Shown piece by piece: positions 21,449 through 48,214 of a stretch of 64,000 bases of DNA (position 1 is its first letter; every line of letters begins with the position of its first letter). This DNA comes from Emcibacteraceae bacterium (GTDB lineage Bacteria > Pseudomonadota > Alphaproteobacteria > Sphingomonadales > Emcibacteraceae). The stretch lies in assembly GCA_021774795.1 (NCBI GenBank), contig JAJFIR010000012.1:1-64000 (forward strand). Reading direction: 5' to 3'. The translations under genes and the position numbers were made by a program. Under the pieces are notes generated by a model. That model saw nothing but the letters and a program-made list of their open reading frames with translations, did no database searches and was not told the origin of the DNA.

Positions 21449-21844
21449 ATGAGAAAAATATTACTTACAGCTCTTTTCTTCTGCGGTTTAGGGATCGTAT
21501 CAGTGGCGTTAGCTGAAACAACGACCGAACGCGGCGCAAAAGAATTAGCAAAATATGAACAAACCGGTGAATTTGAAAGATGTATTTCTAACAATCAGAT
21601 CAAGAGTACTAAAGTTCTTGATGACGGACGTATTTTGTTCAAATTGAAGCACAACAAATACATGTTAAATACGATGAAAAGCGAATGTCCACGTCTCGCG
21701 TTTAATAATAATTTTGCTTACGGGGTTGGTGGAGCGAGCCAACTTTGCGGAAGCGATATCATTTCGGTTGTAAATTATACCACTGTTGGGGCATCTTGTG
21801 TGCTGAGTGAATTTGAAGTTCTGGAGCGGAAGCCTAGATCATAA
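21449..21844 (+). CDS. Secreted small protein, possibly DUF6491
   Basis: 131 residues with a signal peptide (MRKILLTALFFCGLGIVSVALA). The mature part has three or four cysteines (FERCISNNQIKSTKVL, MKSECPRLAFN, SQLCGSDIISV, GASCVLSEF) that may form disulphides. The pattern recalls alphaproteobacterial DUF6491 proteins, of unknown function; I hold that name loosely. It stands alone between clpA and a converging operon. AAAGGA lies before the ATG. Confidence 0.6.
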   Translation: MRKILLTALFFCGLGIVSVALAETTTERGAKELAKYEQTGEFERCISNNQIKSTKVLDDGRILFKLKHNKYMLNTMKSECPRLAFNNNFAYGVGGASQLCGSDIISVVNYTTVGASCVLSEFEVLERKPRS

Positions 21845-40029: not shown

Positions 40030-40125
40030 GGTCCTGCTTATACAGTGATTGCTGCCCGTTTTCTATGATATATTTTGGCTGCATAATTAACTTGTATTTG
40101 TGGTAAAATTATATAAGCATATACC

Positions 40126-40219
40126 CATTCCTAGGGGAGTTTAGTAAACTGAGATTCCATTCCTATTAATGGTAACCCTTAGAACCTGATCCGGGTTATT
40201 CTGGCGGAGGGAAGGAATT
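40126..40219 (+). promoter_or_regulatory. TPP riboswitch (thi box)
   Basis: The aptamer pattern is complete: P1 strands ATTCCT (40127-40132) and AGGAAT (40213-40218), GGGGAG, CTGAGA at 40149-40154, ACCCTT-GAACCTGATCCGGGTTATTCTGGCGGAGGGA-type elements at 40174-40212 (given here as separate conserved blocks). It lies about 80 bases before the thiC ATG. Thiamine pyrophosphate binding should lower thiC expression, probably by hiding the ribosome site or by termination. Confidence 0.93.
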
Positions 40220-40227
40220 CAAATTAA

Positions 40228-42135
<1,908 letters not shown>

Positions 42136-42155
42136 ACCAGAACACTATATTAAAG

Positions 42156-42192
42156 AAAAACCCATTTAAATAGAGAGTTTAAATGGGTTTTT
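42156..42192 (+). terminator. Strong hairpin terminator after thiC
   Basis: Fifteen bases AAAAACCCATTTAAA (42156-42170) pair perfectly with 42178-42192 over a 7-base loop, ending in TTTTT. It lies 20 bases after the thiC stop and should end the transcript. The reverse strand also ends in T-run, so it may act both ways. Confidence 0.9.
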
Positions 42193-42250
42193 AGTGACCA
42201 ATACAGTTTCAATGGTTATGGTTTGCAAAAGATTACTCTATGGGAAAAGA

Positions 42251-42904
42251 ATGAAAATGTCAGATTTAATGAGTAAGCTGTCGTCTTGTTACACGGGTGT
42301 TGTTCATGATATCATGCGTGAGATGGGATTTCAAAATTTTACCTTGCCTAAGGAAATCACACCGCTTGTTGAAGGCGAGGTCTTATGCGGCCCAATTTTT
42401 ACAATAGAAGGAAAAGTTGATGAGAACGCGGATGCTCATCAAACACTTCTTGAATGGACGGGGTTATTATCTAAAGCAAAAAGCGGCCATATTTGGGTGT
42501 GTCAGCCTAATGATTTGAATGTCGCCTTCATGGGTGAATTATCCGCAGAAACTTTATTAAAAAAAGGCGTGTTGGGATGCGTTATCGACGGAGGAATTAG
42601 AGACACGAGCTTTATTACAGATATTAACTTTCCAACTTGGCGGCGTTTTCATACACCACGTGATATAGTAGGTTATTGGCTACCAACTAAATTTAATAAA
42701 CCAATAGTTATCGGAAATGTTACGCTAAATGCGGGGGATTATTTACTGGGTGATCGTGATGGCATCATTTGTATTCCAAAAAACAATGTTGAAGAAATAA
42801 CGGAGAAATCTATAGTAGCCATAAAAACCGAAAGTAAAGTCCGTACGGCAATTTTATCAGGAATTGATCCACGAGAAGCATATTTAAAGTTTGACAAGTT
42901 TTAG
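42251..42904 (+). CDS. RraA/HMG-aldolase-family protein
   Basis: 217 residues from the ATG at 42251 (MKMSDLMSKL), chosen because GGGAAAAGA lies before it. The RraA fold shows VVHDIMREMG, GPIFTIEG, and CVIDGGIRDTSFI with the G-x-x-x-D...RD motif that binds substrate and metal in 4-hydroxy-4-methyl-2-oxoglutarate aldolases. Pyruvate-forming aldolase/decarboxylase is the most likely activity, or an RNase E-inhibitor-like role. It lies 31 bases before a sugar symporter gene, suggesting use on a sugar-acid product. Confidence 0.75.
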   Translation: MKMSDLMSKLSSCYTGVVHDIMREMGFQNFTLPKEITPLVEGEVLCGPIFTIEGKVDENADAHQTLLEWTGLLSKAKSGHIWVCQPNDLNVAFMGELSAETLLKKGVLGCVIDGGIRDTSFITDINFPTWRRFHTPRDIVGYWLPTKFNKPIVIGNVTLNAGDYLLGDRDGIICIPKNNVEEITEKSIVAIKTESKVRTAILSGIDPREAYLKFDKF

Positions 42905-42935
42905 TTATGAAATGAAAGTGTTATAAGAACTCAAA

Positions 42936-44246
42936 ATGAATAAAGCAAATCCCGTTTCTCAAAATAATAATCAGTATCTTTTTGCTCTGGCTTTGATCGT
43001 TAGCTTGTTTTTTATGTGGGGGGTTGCCAATAATTTAAACGATATTTTGATTAAGCAGTTTAAAAAAGCTTTTGAATTAAATGATCTACAATCTGGGCTT
43101 GTGCAATCAGCCTTTTATTTTGGTTACTTCGTTTTTGCGATGCCAGCGGCCCTTGCGATGCGCCGTTACGGGTATAAAAATATTATTATATTCGGGCTGA
43201 TTATATATGCGCTAGGGGCTTTTTTATTCTACCCCGCAGCAGAGAAAGGTTCATATAATTTCTTTCTATTTGCGCTTTTTATTATCGCCAGCGGGCTAGC
43301 ATTTTTAGAAACAACTGCTAATCCATATGTCATTTCACTGGGTAAACCGGAGACGGCAGCCTGGCGGTTGAATTTAGCGCAGGCATTTAATCCGCTCGGC
43401 TCAATAGTGGGCGTTTTTATTGGACGGGAATTTATTTTATCCGGCGTTGAATATAACGCTGACGAGCTCAGTAAATTATCACCGCAAGCTCAAGACGCTT
43501 TTTATTTGAGCGAAAGGCTTGCGGTACAAACGCCGTATCTTATTTTGGGAATGATCGTTCTTATCTGGAGTTTAATCATTTTTCTAACTAAATTCCCAAC
43601 GGTGAAAATCGAAGATGACAATGCACGCAGTGATAAAAGCGCGGGGTTCAAGGGGTTAAAACAATTTCCGCATCTCTATCTTGGTGCGGTAGCGCAATTT
43701 AGTTATGTCGGGGCTCAGGTCGGAATCTGGAGCTACCTGATCAGGTATGCGCAGCACACGGTTCCTGGCATGCCAGAAAAAATTGCCGCTGATTATTTAA
43801 CCTATGCCATATTTGCATTTATGATTGGTCGTTTCGTCGGAACAGTCCTTATAAAATATGTAGCTGCGCATAAATTAATGGCACTATTTGCTGTAGTTAA
43901 TGTTGTTCTGATGATTTTTGCAATATTTATGGATGGCTATTTGGGGCTTTATTGCCTTGTCGCGGCGAGCTTTTTTATGTCTGTGATGTATCCGACTATT
44001 TTTGCCTTAAGCATTGATGGTCTTGGCCCCTATGCAAAATCAGGCTCTTCTTTAATTGTTATGGCGATTATAGGCGGGGCTATTTTAACGGCCTTAATGG
44101 GGTATGTTTCTGATGTTTCAACTATAAAATATGCCTTTATGGTGCCGATGATTTGTTTTGCATTTGTGTTTTACTTTGCACTATGGGGAAAGAAAATCGG
44201 CCGCGCGAATTTTTCATACAAACCAAGCGCGACCGCTAGAAGCTGA
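42936..44246 (+). CDS. FucP-type sugar:proton symporter (MFS)
   Basis: 436 residues, 12 membrane helices. FFMWGVANNLNDILIKQFKKAFEL, LVQSAFYFGYFVFAMPAAL, and LETTANPYVISLGKPETAAWRLNLAQAFNPLG match the L-fucose:H+ symporter family (FHS). Substrates may be fucose, glucose, galactose or other sugars. It probably forms a unit with the RraA-like gene upstream. It ends 80 bases before the restriction gene on the opposite strand. No fucose catabolic enzymes are nearby. Confidence 0.85.
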   Translation: MNKANPVSQNNNQYLFALALIVSLFFMWGVANNLNDILIKQFKKAFELNDLQSGLVQSAFYFGYFVFAMPAALAMRRYGYKNIIIFGLIIYALGAFLFYPAAEKGSYNFFLFALFIIASGLAFLETTANPYVISLGKPETAAWRLNLAQAFNPLGSIVGVFIGREFILSGVEYNADELSKLSPQAQDAFYLSERLAVQTPYLILGMIVLIWSLIIFLTKFPTVKIEDDNARSDKSAGFKGLKQFPHLYLGAVAQFSYVGAQVGIWSYLIRYAQHTVPGMPEKIAADYLTYAIFAFMIGRFVGTVLIKYVAAHKLMALFAVVNVVLMIFAIFMDGYLGLYCLVAASFFMSVMYPTIFALSIDGLGPYAKSGSSLIVMAIIGGAILTALMGYVSDVSTIKYAFMVPMICFAFVFYFALWGKKIGRANFSYKPSATARS

Positions 44247-44248
44247 AG

Positions 44249-44278
44249 CTAGTAAAGAAAGCAACGAGAGCTTTTAGG
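44249..44278 (+). repeat. Short sequence resembling the thiC 3' end
   Basis: After the fucP stop, TAAAGAAAGCAACGA is identical to thiC 42110-42124, and in the right frame it reads EASKESNESF-stop against [10 protein letters not shown]-stop at the thiC C-terminus. The flanking bases differ. It could be a partial duplicate of the thiC tail, or coincidence; in any case no coding function can be assigned. Confidence 0.4.
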
Positions 44279-44327
44279 AGCTTTCAAATCCACGTAAATA
44301 TATAAAGTTAAAGTCAATCGGCGAGTT

Positions 44328-47300
44328 TTATGATTTTGGAAGAAAGTCTATTTTGTCGATTTCTTTCATCACATGATCTGTTTCGGTCAGTGCAACGATG
44401 ATGCGTTGATAATGCATAATATCGTCAAGAGTTAAATTACGTCCTTTTCGGTCTTTAAGCCATTTTTGTGCTGGCTGATAACCACCAATATAAAATTCCC
44501 ATGCCACTTTCGGTACATTTCCAAAATACTGAGTTGTATTTATCCAAACTTTGCCGTCTTCAAAACATGGCTTAATCAATTCATGATCGCCATCGACAGG
44601 ATAGGTTGTAATAAGCTCATCCAATTTCTCACTTTCCATCAGGTGAAGCTCACGAAGTTCAGCTCCTTTCTTAGCAAGAGCATCGAATTTTTTTTGATCA
44701 GATGAGTAAGGGATGCGCGGAAAATCAGTTTTTAAAAATTCTGTATAACGTTTTCGATACTTAGGAGCATGCAGCACAGCATAGATATAATCGAAAAGGG
44801 CTTCTGGTTCTAAATTAGGGATAATATCTTTGAACTTGGAATAAATCTTAGAATCAAGGTTTGGATGTCTATCATTTAAGGCTCCATCATGAAATAGGTA
44901 CAGTGGGAAATGATATGACTGAATTGTTCTTTCGGCGCACTTCATTTCTGATAAGTTATCGGTTACAAAAAAGTGATCAATACTTCCAGATTTGTTTTGT
45001 CTCGCCGTTAATAAAGCAATATTATTTCCGTTTATCATGTGTTTCATAGTACGGTGACGGGGTCTGCCGTGAAATGCACTAGATTTACCAGTATATGCAG
45101 TGTAGCGAGTGTCAAACGGTCTATAGGCAATATTACAATATTGGGGATTATTACTTACTAAATCTGACTGTGCTGCTTGAACTGTCCATACTCCATCTTC
45201 TTTAATTTTATATTTTTTATTGATCTCGTCAATGTCATTATTAAGAATATATGAAATTACTTCTTCTCTTTCTTTTTCAGAAATATATATAGTCATGGCG
45301 TCCTTTTTTGTTTGGATTCCTGTGTTGTATTCCAAAAAAAGTTCTGTAATAGAAAAGCCATTCTCATATTCACTTAATGCTTCATAATTTTTAGGTACAA
45401 AGAAGCAATAAGGTTTTTTAATTGATAATTTTTTGAAAGGAGTAGAACTAATATTATTTGATATTAATCGATTGTACTTATTACTACGCGAACCATAACT
45501 ATCGAAATGATAAATATTAGCCAATTTCTGCTTACTATTGTTATGTTTAATAAAAATAAAGATACAAACACCCTGTTGAATATCAAAAACATTGTCATCT
45601 TTTAATCCATCGGGAGTTTTTTCTTTCTGTTTTGAGTTTCCATGAAGATCATAAATATATATTTCGTCAAATGTCTCCATGAGATGTATTCTCAATTGAC
45701 GATGAGTTACACCACTTAAAAAACTATTATTAGTGATCATTGAAACAATTCCATAACCAGTTCTCTCAACATAATGTTCGGCATATCGAATAAATTTTAT
45801 GTAGTCGTCATCTAAGTTAATTTTTTTCTCTTTTAATCCAACTTTATAATCTTGTATAAGGTTCTGAATCCATTCACCTTTATTAGTACTACTCACCGAA
45901 TAGGGTGGGTTACCAAATGCAACCATAATGGGCATGTTTTTTTTGATCCAGCTTGCTTCATTGGCTTCACGGGAAAGCCAACTAGCGAATAGACTATCCA
46001 TTTCTGGATGGTGTTCTTCTAAACTATTGGTTAAATAGACGCTTAAGCGTGGTGGATTATGTTCATTTGATGGTTTGTATCCGGTTTCTTGTAATAACAA
46101 ATCCAGTTTCATATGGCACATGGCATAACTAGCCATCAGCAGTTCAAATCCGTGCATACGTGGAAGCAGGTCATTTTCTACATAACTACTCCAAATGCCT
46201 TCCTGCCCCTTATACTTTTTATAAATTTGTTTAACAGTTTCCGCCAGAAAAGTACCTGTTCCAGTGGCAACATCAAGTAGCTGGACTTTATGAACTTCTT
46301 TCGTTTCAATAGCTTTTTTTGATTTAGTTCGGTTGTCGATTTTTTGTGCGTCGACCTTAATTTTAATCTTTGATTTATCAGCAATACCGTCTTTTAAGCC
46401 AAAATGGGTTTTTAGCACTTCATCAATGGCACGGACGATGAAATTAACTACTGGTTCCGGCGTGTACCATACGCCACGGGCTTTACGTAGTGATTTGTCA
46501 TATTTCGCAAGGAAAGTTTCATAGAAATGCAGCATCGGATCTTTTTGACCCGTGGAGGAACCAAAATCTTCAAGGATTTTATCAAGATCAGAAAATAGAA
46601 AGACTTCGCATAGCGCGTCAACAATCCAGACGACCCGTTCTTCAAGCTCCGGACCGGCGATATAGCTAAAAAGTTGGCGTAAAAACGGATTGCTTTTAGG
46701 AATTAAGAGAAGAGCTTCGCTACGCGAGAAGCTTTCTTTTGTTTTGTCATGTAAACGTGCTGTAAATAAACCGTATGCGATGGTTTGCGCATAGACATCG
46801 GCAAACTGTTCTTCTGTCATGTCATGCATTAATACTTTTTGGAAAACTTTAAGTTGATCTTTTAAACTGCTGTCTTCTTCGGCCAAAATGACATTATGGA
46901 AAACATGTTTCATGAGTTTGGCTTTATGAGCCATCATTTCTGCCAGTTTCTTTGCAGATTTAATTGTCTGACCTTGGAAAGCGGAGAAATCCAGAAGAAG
47001 AGTTTTGAGACGATCATAATTCTCAGGTATTGGCTTTACTTGCCCATTTTCGATTTCGCCAATACGTATTACATCAACTTTTTCACCATTCAGGTAAAAA
47101 CGAAATTCCAGATAATCAGTTAGGATTAAATTATCAAGGGATTCAAGGTAACGCTTAAGTTGATCTGTTTTTTCAGTTTTACTGAGGTCGTTGTCAATAT
47201 CTTTTGCTTCGATATAACCTACATCAATTTTATTTTGATGAAGAATATAATCAGGTGCACCACATTGAATATGAGCAGGATCATTAACAGCCGTAACGTC

Positions 47301-47411
47301 AGGCATAATGTCTTCGATAAGTATTTTTAGTGCTGGGCGGTAGGCGTGTTCACGAGCGATGCCGGTGTTATATTGATTTTGAATATCTTCGATATATTTT
47401 TGAAACGGCAT
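44328..47411 (-). CDS. Single-chain restriction-modification enzyme (type IIG-like)
   Basis: 1027 residues. The N-terminal CGAPDYILHQNKIDVGYIEAKD fits a PD-(D/E)xK nuclease site (PD...ExK). An Eco57I-like N6-adenine methyltransferase follows: LLDVATGTGTFLAETV (SAM-binding motif I) and AFGNPPYSVS (catalytic NPPY). The C-terminal third should hold the target-recognition domain. No helicase motifs are seen and length is below the 1500 or more of type ISP enzymes, so type IIG is the best fit. No separate specificity gene is nearby. It would both methylate and cut DNA. Lower GC than neighbours suggests transfer. Confidence 0.82.
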   Translation of the reverse strand: MPFQKYIEDIQNQYNTGIAREHAYRPALKILIEDIMPDVTAVNDPAHIQCGAPDYILHQNKIDVGYIEAKDIDNDLSKTEKTDQLKRYLESLDNLILTDYLEFRFYLNGEKVDVIRIGEIENGQVKPIPENYDRLKTLLLDFSAFQGQTIKSAKKLAEMMAHKAKLMKHVFHNVILAEEDSSLKDQLKVFQKVLMHDMTEEQFADVYAQTIAYGLFTARLHDKTKESFSRSEALLLIPKSNPFLRQLFSYIAGPELEERVVWIVDALCEVFLFSDLDKILEDFGSSTGQKDPMLHFYETFLAKYDKSLRKARGVWYTPEPVVNFIVRAIDEVLKTHFGLKDGIADKSKIKIKVDAQKIDNRTKSKKAIETKEVHKVQLLDVATGTGTFLAETVKQIYKKYKGQEGIWSSYVENDLLPRMHGFELLMASYAMCHMKLDLLLQETGYKPSNEHNPPRLSVYLTNSLEEHHPEMDSLFASWLSREANEASWIKKNMPIMVAFGNPPYSVSSTNKGEWIQNLIQDYKVGLKEKKINLDDDYIKFIRYAEHYVERTGYGIVSMITNNSFLSGVTHRQLRIHLMETFDEIYIYDLHGNSKQKEKTPDGLKDDNVFDIQQGVCIFIFIKHNNSKQKLANIYHFDSYGSRSNKYNRLISNNISSTPFKKLSIKKPYCFFVPKNYEALSEYENGFSITELFLEYNTGIQTKKDAMTIYISEKEREEVISYILNNDIDEINKKYKIKEDGVWTVQAAQSDLVSNNPQYCNIAYRPFDTRYTAYTGKSSAFHGRPRHRTMKHMINGNNIALLTARQNKSGSIDHFFVTDNLSEMKCAERTIQSYHFPLYLFHDGALNDRHPNLDSKIYSKFKDIIPNLEPEALFDYIYAVLHAPKYRKRYTEFLKTDFPRIPYSSDQKKFDALAKKGAELRELHLMESEKLDELITTYPVDGDHELIKPCFEDGKVWINTTQYFGNVPKVAWEFYIGGYQPAQKWLKDRKGRNLTLDDIMHYQRIIVALTETDHVMKEIDKIDFLPKS

Positions 47412-47542
47412 ACAAATACTTCCCCATATAATTATTCTTGCACTAACTAAAGTAATTCACACTACTTTATCTTTTAATTTAAGGCGAGGAGGATTTTTAA
47501 TTCAGTATGCGCAGAAGTCGTTATTCCTATATTAATTACACA
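47412..47542. other. Gap upstream of the restriction gene
   Basis: 131 AT-rich bases between the restriction gene start and the TetR remnant stop. It presumably holds the promoter of the restriction gene (minus strand); no confident box, RNA or ORF is seen. Confidence 0.3.
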
Positions 47543-47818
47543 TTAAAGACTGGATTTGAGGGTTTTTATTAAATTTGCATGTGCTTCGGTTAATTCTTCT
47601 ACGGATAGGCCACTTCGCACCATTACCCGAAACCCGGAATATACCGCGAGGAGCCAACGTGCCTTGATGGCAAGTGTATGTTCATCAATAGTTGGTGAAA
47701 CATCCTTTAGTGCTTTTACCAACCCCTGTTCCATTTTTTTAAACCCGCGCTGCACCATATCTGATGTTTCCGGGTTTAATGCTGCACGGTCAGATGAAGC
47801 ATTACATAAAAAACTCAA
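47543..47818 (-). pseudogene. TetR-family regulator, C-terminal remnant
   Basis: About 90 codons match the C-terminal ligand-binding half of TetR/AcrR regulators: FLCNASSDRAALNPETSDMV, RGFKKMEQGLVKALKD, IKARWLLAVYSGFRVMVRSG. The N-terminal helix-turn-helix (about 100 residues) is missing; an in-frame TGA precedes the fragment and no ATG or ribosome site remains (TTG only). A DNA-binding function is excluded. The breakpoint lies near 47820, next to a hairpin. Confidence 0.75.
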
Positions 47819-47827
47819 GTAAACTCA

Positions 47828-47866
47828 GGATCAATGGGAGAGCAACGCTGCTAACTCCATTGATCC
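47828..47866 (-). terminator. Hairpin after the DUF4870 gene
   Basis: GGATCAATGG (47828-47837) pairs with CCATTGATCC (47857-47866), with a further inner AGC/GCT pairing in the loop. It abuts the stop of the DUF4870 gene (47867), and on the minus strand a T-run (TTTTTT) follows after about 14 bases. A likely terminator. Confidence 0.6.
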
Positions 47867-48214
47867 TTAAGGTTTAAATTTTTCACTCAACTGTTCGGCA
47901 TAACTGGTGAGAAAATCGAGTCTTAAAGGCTTTTTATTTAATGCGGTAACAATGAATACGATCCAGAGGACGAGTGTTGCGAGGCTAAGGAGGCTCATAA
48001 GCATTAAACCACCCATGAAAAGAAACATGGGCAGTATAAAATTTAAAAGCGTGATGCTACCGAAAATGATAATCGATTGCGCGGCATGGTACCTGACAGT
48101 GTCATTTTCTTTTTCAATTAAAAGAATGATTAAACCGGAAATCCAGCCGAGTGCATAACAAAGAGCGATGGCAACGTGTTCAGGGGTTCCTATAGATGTG
48201 GGTTTTGATGTCAT
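47867..48214 (-). CDS. Small membrane protein, DUF4870-like
   Basis: 115 residues with three hydrophobic helices (ALCYALGWISGLIILLIE, IIIFGSITLLNFILPMFLF, LLSLATLVLWIVFIVTAL). EKENDTVRYHAAQSIIIFG fits the DUF4870 pattern (a charged ...VRFHA(A)QS... stretch). Function unknown. Separated by 69 bases from the dipeptidase gene on the same strand. Confidence 0.75.
   Translation of the reverse strand: MTSKPTSIGTPEHVAIALCYALGWISGLIILLIEKENDTVRYHAAQSIIIFGSITLLNFILPMFLFMGGLMLMSLLSLATLVLWIVFIVTALNKKPLRLDFLTSYAEQLSEKFKP

Follow-up and report, generated by a model that had tools for sequence, protein, structure and literature searches.

A second thiC 3′ end inside an accessory block between thiC and argG of an Emcibacteraceae bacterium

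The block of genes that follows thiC in this Emcibacteraceae bacterium is probably (we put the probability at about 0.66) a species-specific patchwork of acquired genes, which occupies a variable spot between the core genes thiC and argG and consists of two modules. Within the block, a genuine second copy of the thiC 3′ end separates a sugar module (rraA–fucP) from a defence module made up of a restriction–modification gene, here called RM, and the remnant of a TetR regulator gene. The block is an example of how unrelated metabolic and defence genes come to occupy a variable spot next to a core gene of vitamin synthesis (vitamin B1, thiC), and the second thiC end is a readable scar of that gene flux. 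The block is otherwise an ordinary accessory islet, the duplication of the thiC end being its sole unusual point.

Results

Composition of the block

We analyzed a stretch of 64,000 nucleotides, hereafter the window, which lies in contig C4 of a genome of 3.93 Mb in 58 contigs (99.5% complete, 3.92% estimated contamination). G000 denotes the genome of the window, the other G numbers denote its relatives, congeners among them, and L numbers denote loci. The block measures about 5.7 kb and contains an RraA-like gene, fucP, RM and the TetR remnant; thiC lies on its left and, going rightward, the genes for DUF4870, an M19 dipeptidase and a 189-aa protein are followed by argG, which was named in the window from its own sequence (Table 1). 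Profile matches and, for the TetR gene, similarity to DNA of the congener G012 placed all four genes where an earlier, sequence-only reading of the window had put them. That reading had also regarded the block as accessory and non-conserved, and this view held: the same gene order was sought in the family and not found, which led us to reject conserved gene order at the thiC spot among the family genomes covered. No integrase or recombinase is present among the four genes of positions 42136–47820. The GC content of RM, which had been called low, is 0.356 (z −1.8), the third lowest among the 48 window ORFs of at least 150 aa, and that of the sugar genes is near normal (z −1.2 for rraA and −0.5 for fucP).

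Table 1. Features of the block and of its flanks in the window.
Feature	Position	Strand	Evidence
TPP riboswitch, 5′ of thiC, core flank	40123..40229	+	Rfam RF00059, 73.9 bits
thiC, core left flank	40303..42135	+	PF01964, 7.7e-184
thiC 3′ end copy 1, direct repeat	42102..42134	+	repeat, matrix and pattern scans
15-bp perfect inverted repeat, likely intrinsic terminator of thiC, 5′ of rraA	42156..42192	+	role inferred
RraA-like aldolase-family gene	42194..42904	+	PF03737, E 1.3e-25
fucP, L-fucose:H+ symporter permease	42936..44246	+	TIGR00885, 461.7 bits (cut-off 280.4)
thiC 3′ end copy 2 with hairpin GAGAGCTTTTAGGAGCTTTC across the stop codon	44244..44285	+	
RM, single chain: nuclease, N6-methyltransferase and specificity domain	44328..47411	-	PF18135, PADLOC
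TetR regulator gene, C-terminal remnant lacking the DNA-binding half	47543..47818	-	similarity to G012 gene
Hairpin, likely DUF4870 terminator, block right edge	47827..47865	-	read from sequence
DUF4870 gene, right flank common to G004 and G008	47867..48214	-	PF09685

The second thiC 3′ end

The 33 nt of copy 1 (42102–42134) recur as a direct repeat at 44244–44276 with 82% identity, and the two copies share a 15-nt identical core, TAAAGAAAGCAACGA. On a matrix derived from the thiC ends of the genus, which included copy 1 and left out copy 2, copy 2 scored 31.0 bits, whereas the next among the sites listed in the 64-kb window scored 9.0 and shuffles of 12 sequences scored at most 10.2. The tail pattern, allowing up to three mismatches, was present exactly twice in the whole G000 genome (at 42112 and 44254). 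Copy 2 also follows the thiC reading register, being read from the sequence as ASKESNESF-stop, and its similarity runs beyond the stop codon into a hairpin known at other thiC ends. By plain ungapped local alignment copy 2 scored 18.0, compared with a best of 15.0 in 300 dinucleotide shuffles, and it ranked first among 282 gene ends, one chance pair of which reached 16.5. Since this plain score barely beats chance, the claim rests on the matrix, the reading register and the hairpin, and the thiC-like tail that had been noticed by eye is a genuine second thiC 3′ end.

In G005, G008, G001 and G012 the stop codon of thiC itself sits within the hairpin, and a search of 13 genomes with the hairpin pattern (up to three mismatches) returned only the thiC ends of these four congeners and copy 2. 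Because the pattern is limited to these sites, we rejected a REP-like dispersed repeat as the nature of the hairpin; in the four congeners it could be a 3′ mRNA element or a recombination site. The stem of copy 2 is kept through a C–G to U–A change and one G–U pair, and the fold has a predicted energy of −9.3 kcal/mol, which was equalled in 1 of 200 shuffles. At L036, L037, L039 and L040 the thiC-stop hairpin (GAGAGCC..GGGCTCTC) has no T run and is followed by a co-directional ORF. On inspection, further local matches at 21449–21844 and within L043 resembled chance similarity.

Position and origin of the second thiC end

Copy 2 lies directly at the fucP stop codon, so that the thiC ends bracket rraA–fucP only, and RM and the TetR remnant are outside the bracket. 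This arrangement suggests that the block was built by at least two events. The sequence-only reading had proposed the thiC-like tail as a boundary of the block; the tail is a genuine seam, but its place is in the interior, where it splits the block into two parts, and it marks no outer edge.

We infer the route of recombination and the order of events as follows. Module 1 (42136–44276) would be rraA–fucP flanked by the two thiC 3′ ends. Most likely, DNA that ended in a homologue of the thiC end, or was circularised through one, entered the thiC 3′ end through one crossover in the 15-nt identical core; this would have kept thiC intact, with an additional tail following the cargo. Module 2 (44286–47818), with a self-contained RM gene and the 3′ remnant of a TetR gene, may have come in separately, or a deletion with one end next to the DUF4870 terminator may have trimmed it. 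If the two copies are the products of a crossover, the hypothetical native site is the left of copy 1 joined to the right of copy 2. This hypothetical site matches the hairpin-bearing congeners (n = 4) at 31–33 of 42 positions, as against 25–30 for the separate copies. The thiC ends of G000's own clade (G003, G007, G002 and G011) have no hairpin, and copy 1 fits them as well as the hypothetical site or better (26–28 versus 25–26). The clade was defined by a tree of thiC, argG, pyrB and ruvX, in which G000 falls among G002, G011, G003 and G007 with modest support (0.68 at the nearest node).

Alternatively, the block could stem from a congener that carried thiC–RM–TetR, in a single import by homologous recombination, be it through transformation or through a gene transfer agent, with no site-specific recombinase involved; the second tail would then be the donor's thiC end, and rraA–fucP would have been inserted later or imported along. 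Such an import would agree with the absence of a recombinase from the block, and copy 2 does resemble the hairpin-type thiC end of other congeners, unlike the ends of G000's own clade, but a 15-nt identical core between divergent arms is more like a crossover point. A related TetR gene does exist in a congener, but in the 10 congeners whose sequence continues past thiC neither RM nor rraA–fucP was found at the spot, and RM was present in only 1 of the 32 family genomes searched, that of the window itself (for 22 of the 32, completeness is 90% or more and contamination 5% or less). We therefore consider a single import unlikely. That the thiC-end repeat arose by chance or by local duplication, unconnected with gene acquisition, is far less probable still, and is largely refuted: the slightness of the lead of the ungapped score over the best chance pair speaks for this explanation, but the gap between 31.0 and 9.0 bits on the matrix and the continuation of copy 2, in register, past the stop codon into the hairpin speak against it, and one would not expect copies made by a recent local duplication to have drifted to 82% identity, with a hairpin that is absent from copy 1.

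The exchange that we favor for rraA–fucP recalls one class of integrative elements, those that target the 3′ end of a conserved gene and are flanked by direct repeats after insertion. The likeness lies in the gene-end repeat on both sides of rraA–fucP, the intact gene, and the identical core with divergent arms; unlike such elements, the pair comes with no recombinase and no known partner element, the repeat identity is 82% and the cargo is 2.1 kb. Among the paper titles listed in our literature searches, none reports use of the thiC 3′ end as a landing site, and we know of no report of it as an integration site. Among 18 loci of relatives, one other, in G004, carries a weak candidate for a second thiC end after cargo: about 18 nt that match well, located after a TPR-sulfotransferase gene at a spacing of 2056, compared with 2142 in G000. 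This candidate scored 19.7 bits on the matrix (at most 9.1 for the other sites listed and 10.2 in shuffles), and its simple score of 14.5 was reached by none of 2000 shuffles (maximum 14.0) and is lower than those of two apparently chance cases among the 282 gene ends; it is possibly real. The shuffle scan covered the window and these 18 loci and left out G007, whose contig ends about 85 nt past thiC, G011, whose contig is short, and G006, whose thiC 3′ end is off the contig; G007 and G011 were included in the matrix scan. The mildly low shuffle values of G015 (0.035) and G020 (0.03) were taken as chance among 19 loci. If the thiC 3′ end of this genus were an attachment site for recombinase-less cassettes of about 2 kb that are moved in trans, which we regard as decidedly unlikely, rraA–fucP of G000 and the TPR-sulfotransferase gene of G004 would be two thiC-end-closed cassettes. 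Should the scar prove recurrent, it would be worthwhile to scan thiC 3′ ends as a landing site; otherwise it reflects ordinary genome flux.

The variable spot between thiC and argG

We found thiC in 54 of 60 genomes, from which 30 loci were given and 20 larger stretches were taken. Across 12 congeners thiC is 86–96% identical, partial copies counted. The left flank is ruvX–thiC in those congeners whose stretch reaches it, and the right flank is argG–metal hydrolase–xdhC–mobA in all seven congeners with thiC and argG on one stretch. Between these flanks the contents differ in each of the eight genus genomes with both genes on one stretch (the window and the seven congeners), and the thiC–argG distance ranges from 1.7 to 8.4 kb.

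The cargo of the congeners was identified by Pfam on part of the genes, with argG off the G004 and G005 stretches. It comprises a TIR-domain gene and DUF4440 in G009; a beta-lactamase-family gene and a sulphur transporter in G010; ThuA, a DUF1579-like gene (under the curated cut-off) and an oxidoreductase in G003; a rhodanese and a glyoxalase-family gene in G001; L-PSP, an FMN dehydrogenase and a sulfatase in G012; the TPR-sulfotransferase and DUF817 in G004; and an acyltransferase and a LytTR two-component pair in G005. Since some items recur, namely M19, DUF4870 (G004 and G008) and the sulphur transporter (by Pfam in G010, by eye in G008 and G001), the spot is variable yet partly common among species. 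The G009 TIR-domain gene (L035, 7955–8830), the second ORF past thiC, is a possible defence gene in a second species. The block resembles accessory islets in chromosomal hotspots in that its cargo differs by species between conserved flanks and mixes metabolic with defence genes, with no mobility gene seen in the stretches read; it differs from them in the duplicated thiC 3′ end within it.

The empty sites that the sequence-only reading had led us to look for did not turn up in precise form among the congeners: thiC faces M19 directly in G003, G002 and G011, but the DUF4870 gene is also gone from between them, and the intergenic region of G003 was unaligned by eye. These losses, together with contents that vary in every genome compared, indicate that deletions probably occur at the spot, as would be required had the block been ancestral to the genus and deleted in all other members. 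However, a search of the other 31 family genomes, not all of which are complete, did not find RM, and relatives of RM occur here and there among many phyla, a pattern that fits transfer and makes an ancestral block very doubtful indeed. An assembly chimera at one junction, which 58 contigs and the estimated contamination might bring to mind, is hardly credible, because on either side the core genes and their order are as expected, and a chimera would need two false joins that restored synteny.

The TetR remnant and the right edge

The TetR remnant has 91 codons and on its own matches no Pfam or NCBIfam family. A full-length TetR protein of G012 is 70% identical to it over 88 residues, and the DNA of positions 47588–47814 is 74% identical to the 3′ part of the G012 gene, starting at about residue 111 of 200. 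As the TetR_N domain of the G012 protein occupies residues 21–63, the DNA-binding half is missing from the window gene, just as had been read from the sequence. The G012 gene is at another place, in contig C1 about 250 kb from its own thiC; there (L074, 5583–7751) it is divergent, as judged by eye, from a gene like those for oxidoreductases of the dihydrolipoamide-dehydrogenase type.

The TetR similarity ends at about 47814–47818, beside the hairpin at 47827–47865, and this point is plausible as the right edge of the block. The breakpoint that had been suggested near 47820 agrees with this edge, but no repeat longer than 7 nt accompanies it: the longest sequence that 47780–47870 shares with the other edges is the 7-mer AGCAACG, which we took as chance. 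Of the direct repeats proposed at 42136, 44280 and 47820, the first two thus exist, as the thiC ends, and the third does not. A 9-mer common to 42100–42200 and 47410–47545 was presumed to be chance as well.

The restriction–modification gene

The RM protein has 1027 aa and matches PF18135 (Type_ISP_C, 2.1e-81) and the PADLOC model REase_MTase_IIG (1061.9 bits). We aligned RM sequences using 8 of the 37 RM loci (L080 and L102 were dropped because of stop codons in the matched stretches). In the nine aligned sequences P53 D54, E68 and K70 are invariant in the nuclease part, and D380, A382, G384, T385, T387 and F388 as well as N501 P502 P503 Y504 are invariant in the methyltransferase part; we take the first set to be a PD-(D/E)XK nuclease, and D380–F388 and N501–Y504 to be N6-adenine methyltransferase motifs. 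With these motifs, the enzyme would be expected to methylate its own target and to cut unmethylated incoming DNA.

In its nuclease residues, methyltransferase motifs, Type_ISP_C domain and chain of about 1000 residues the protein is like single-chain Type IIG enzymes as defined by the PADLOC model, and nothing distinctive sets it apart from them. It is also like the Type ISP enzymes LlaGI and LlaBIII in that the methyltransferase and specificity half aligns (residues 368–986 of RM to 893–1523 of LlaBIII). The domain set given for Type ISP in the abstract of PMC4666363, however, includes an SF2 helicase-like ATPase. A search of RM with Pfam and defence-system profiles gave no helicase family match, and the chain has 1027 residues, compared with 1578 in the Type ISP enzymes. 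The lack of a helicase match leads us to classify RM, from its sequence, as Type IIG-like rather than as a true Type ISP enzyme. Because Type IIG-like enzymes are complete in one gene, it is normal for such an RM gene to stand alone.

The 37 loci with RM relatives are from Alphaproteobacteria, Bacteroidota, Fibrobacterota, cyanobacteria and others. They include L085, 85% identical to RM residues 1–528, and L084, 68% identical over the full length. Relatives were present in 336 of 72,556 plasmid records, all below 60% identity, and these plasmid homologues are frequently annotated as 'type ISP'. A phage origin of RM was rejected: only 2 of 50,697 phage records held a relative (24.7% identity over 68%), and none was confirmed in the viral contigs searched, in which the replication-like neighbour gene of L084 had no match either.

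Four close RM loci were read, L084, L085 and L075 from Alphaproteobacteria and L086 from Proteobacteria. In L084 and L075 RM is immediately preceded by a gene of about 385 aa, which in L085, where the contig stops inside RM, stands one gene further off; L086 shows no such gene. The ~385-aa gene has no match to the phage replication-protein family phrog_702 in L084 and weak ones (6.8e-6 and 4.1e-5) in the other two loci. A serine recombinase gene was found downstream of RM in L075 by Pfam, and a truncated one in L084 by eye, where a SpoVG-domain gene is also near the RM relative. The neighbours of RM in the window include no such ~385-aa gene and no serine recombinase. L084, L085 and L075 are apparently small integrated elements that carry an RM gene.

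The rraA–fucP pair

The RraA-like ORF probably starts nearer 42257 than its listed start. The protein stayed under the cut-off in all nine NCBIfam models that it matched (29.1 against a curated cut-off of 136 for RraA, 81.3 against 179 for CHA aldolase and 76 against 304.5 for LigK), and these scores mark it as a member of the superfamily only, with no equivalog status as RraA or CHA aldolase. FucP, by contrast, clears two curated cut-offs, that of TIGR00885 given in Table 1 and that of NF007524 (429.3 against 427). FucP would import L-fucose or a similar sugar coupled to protons, and a keto-acid from the breakdown of sugar acids may be the substrate of the RraA-like enzyme.

Matches elsewhere in the family reach at most 35% identity for RraA, the paralogues of the genome itself included, and at most 40% for FucP. 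A survey of the class found relatives of the RraA-like gene in 145 of 385 genomes, the best with 61% identity. At L125 such a relative follows an enolase-superfamily gene and rhaM, neighbours that point to a putative role in sugar-acid breakdown. We rejected the idea that rraA and fucP travel as a pair, as fucP was absent from the 1.5 kb around rraA in all 19 loci examined in other genomes. A FucP-like match in G012 (L116; G012:C1:1930563-1931858) contains one internal TAA stop and yet lies in a 435-aa open frame, and may represent either the end of a frame or a pseudogene.
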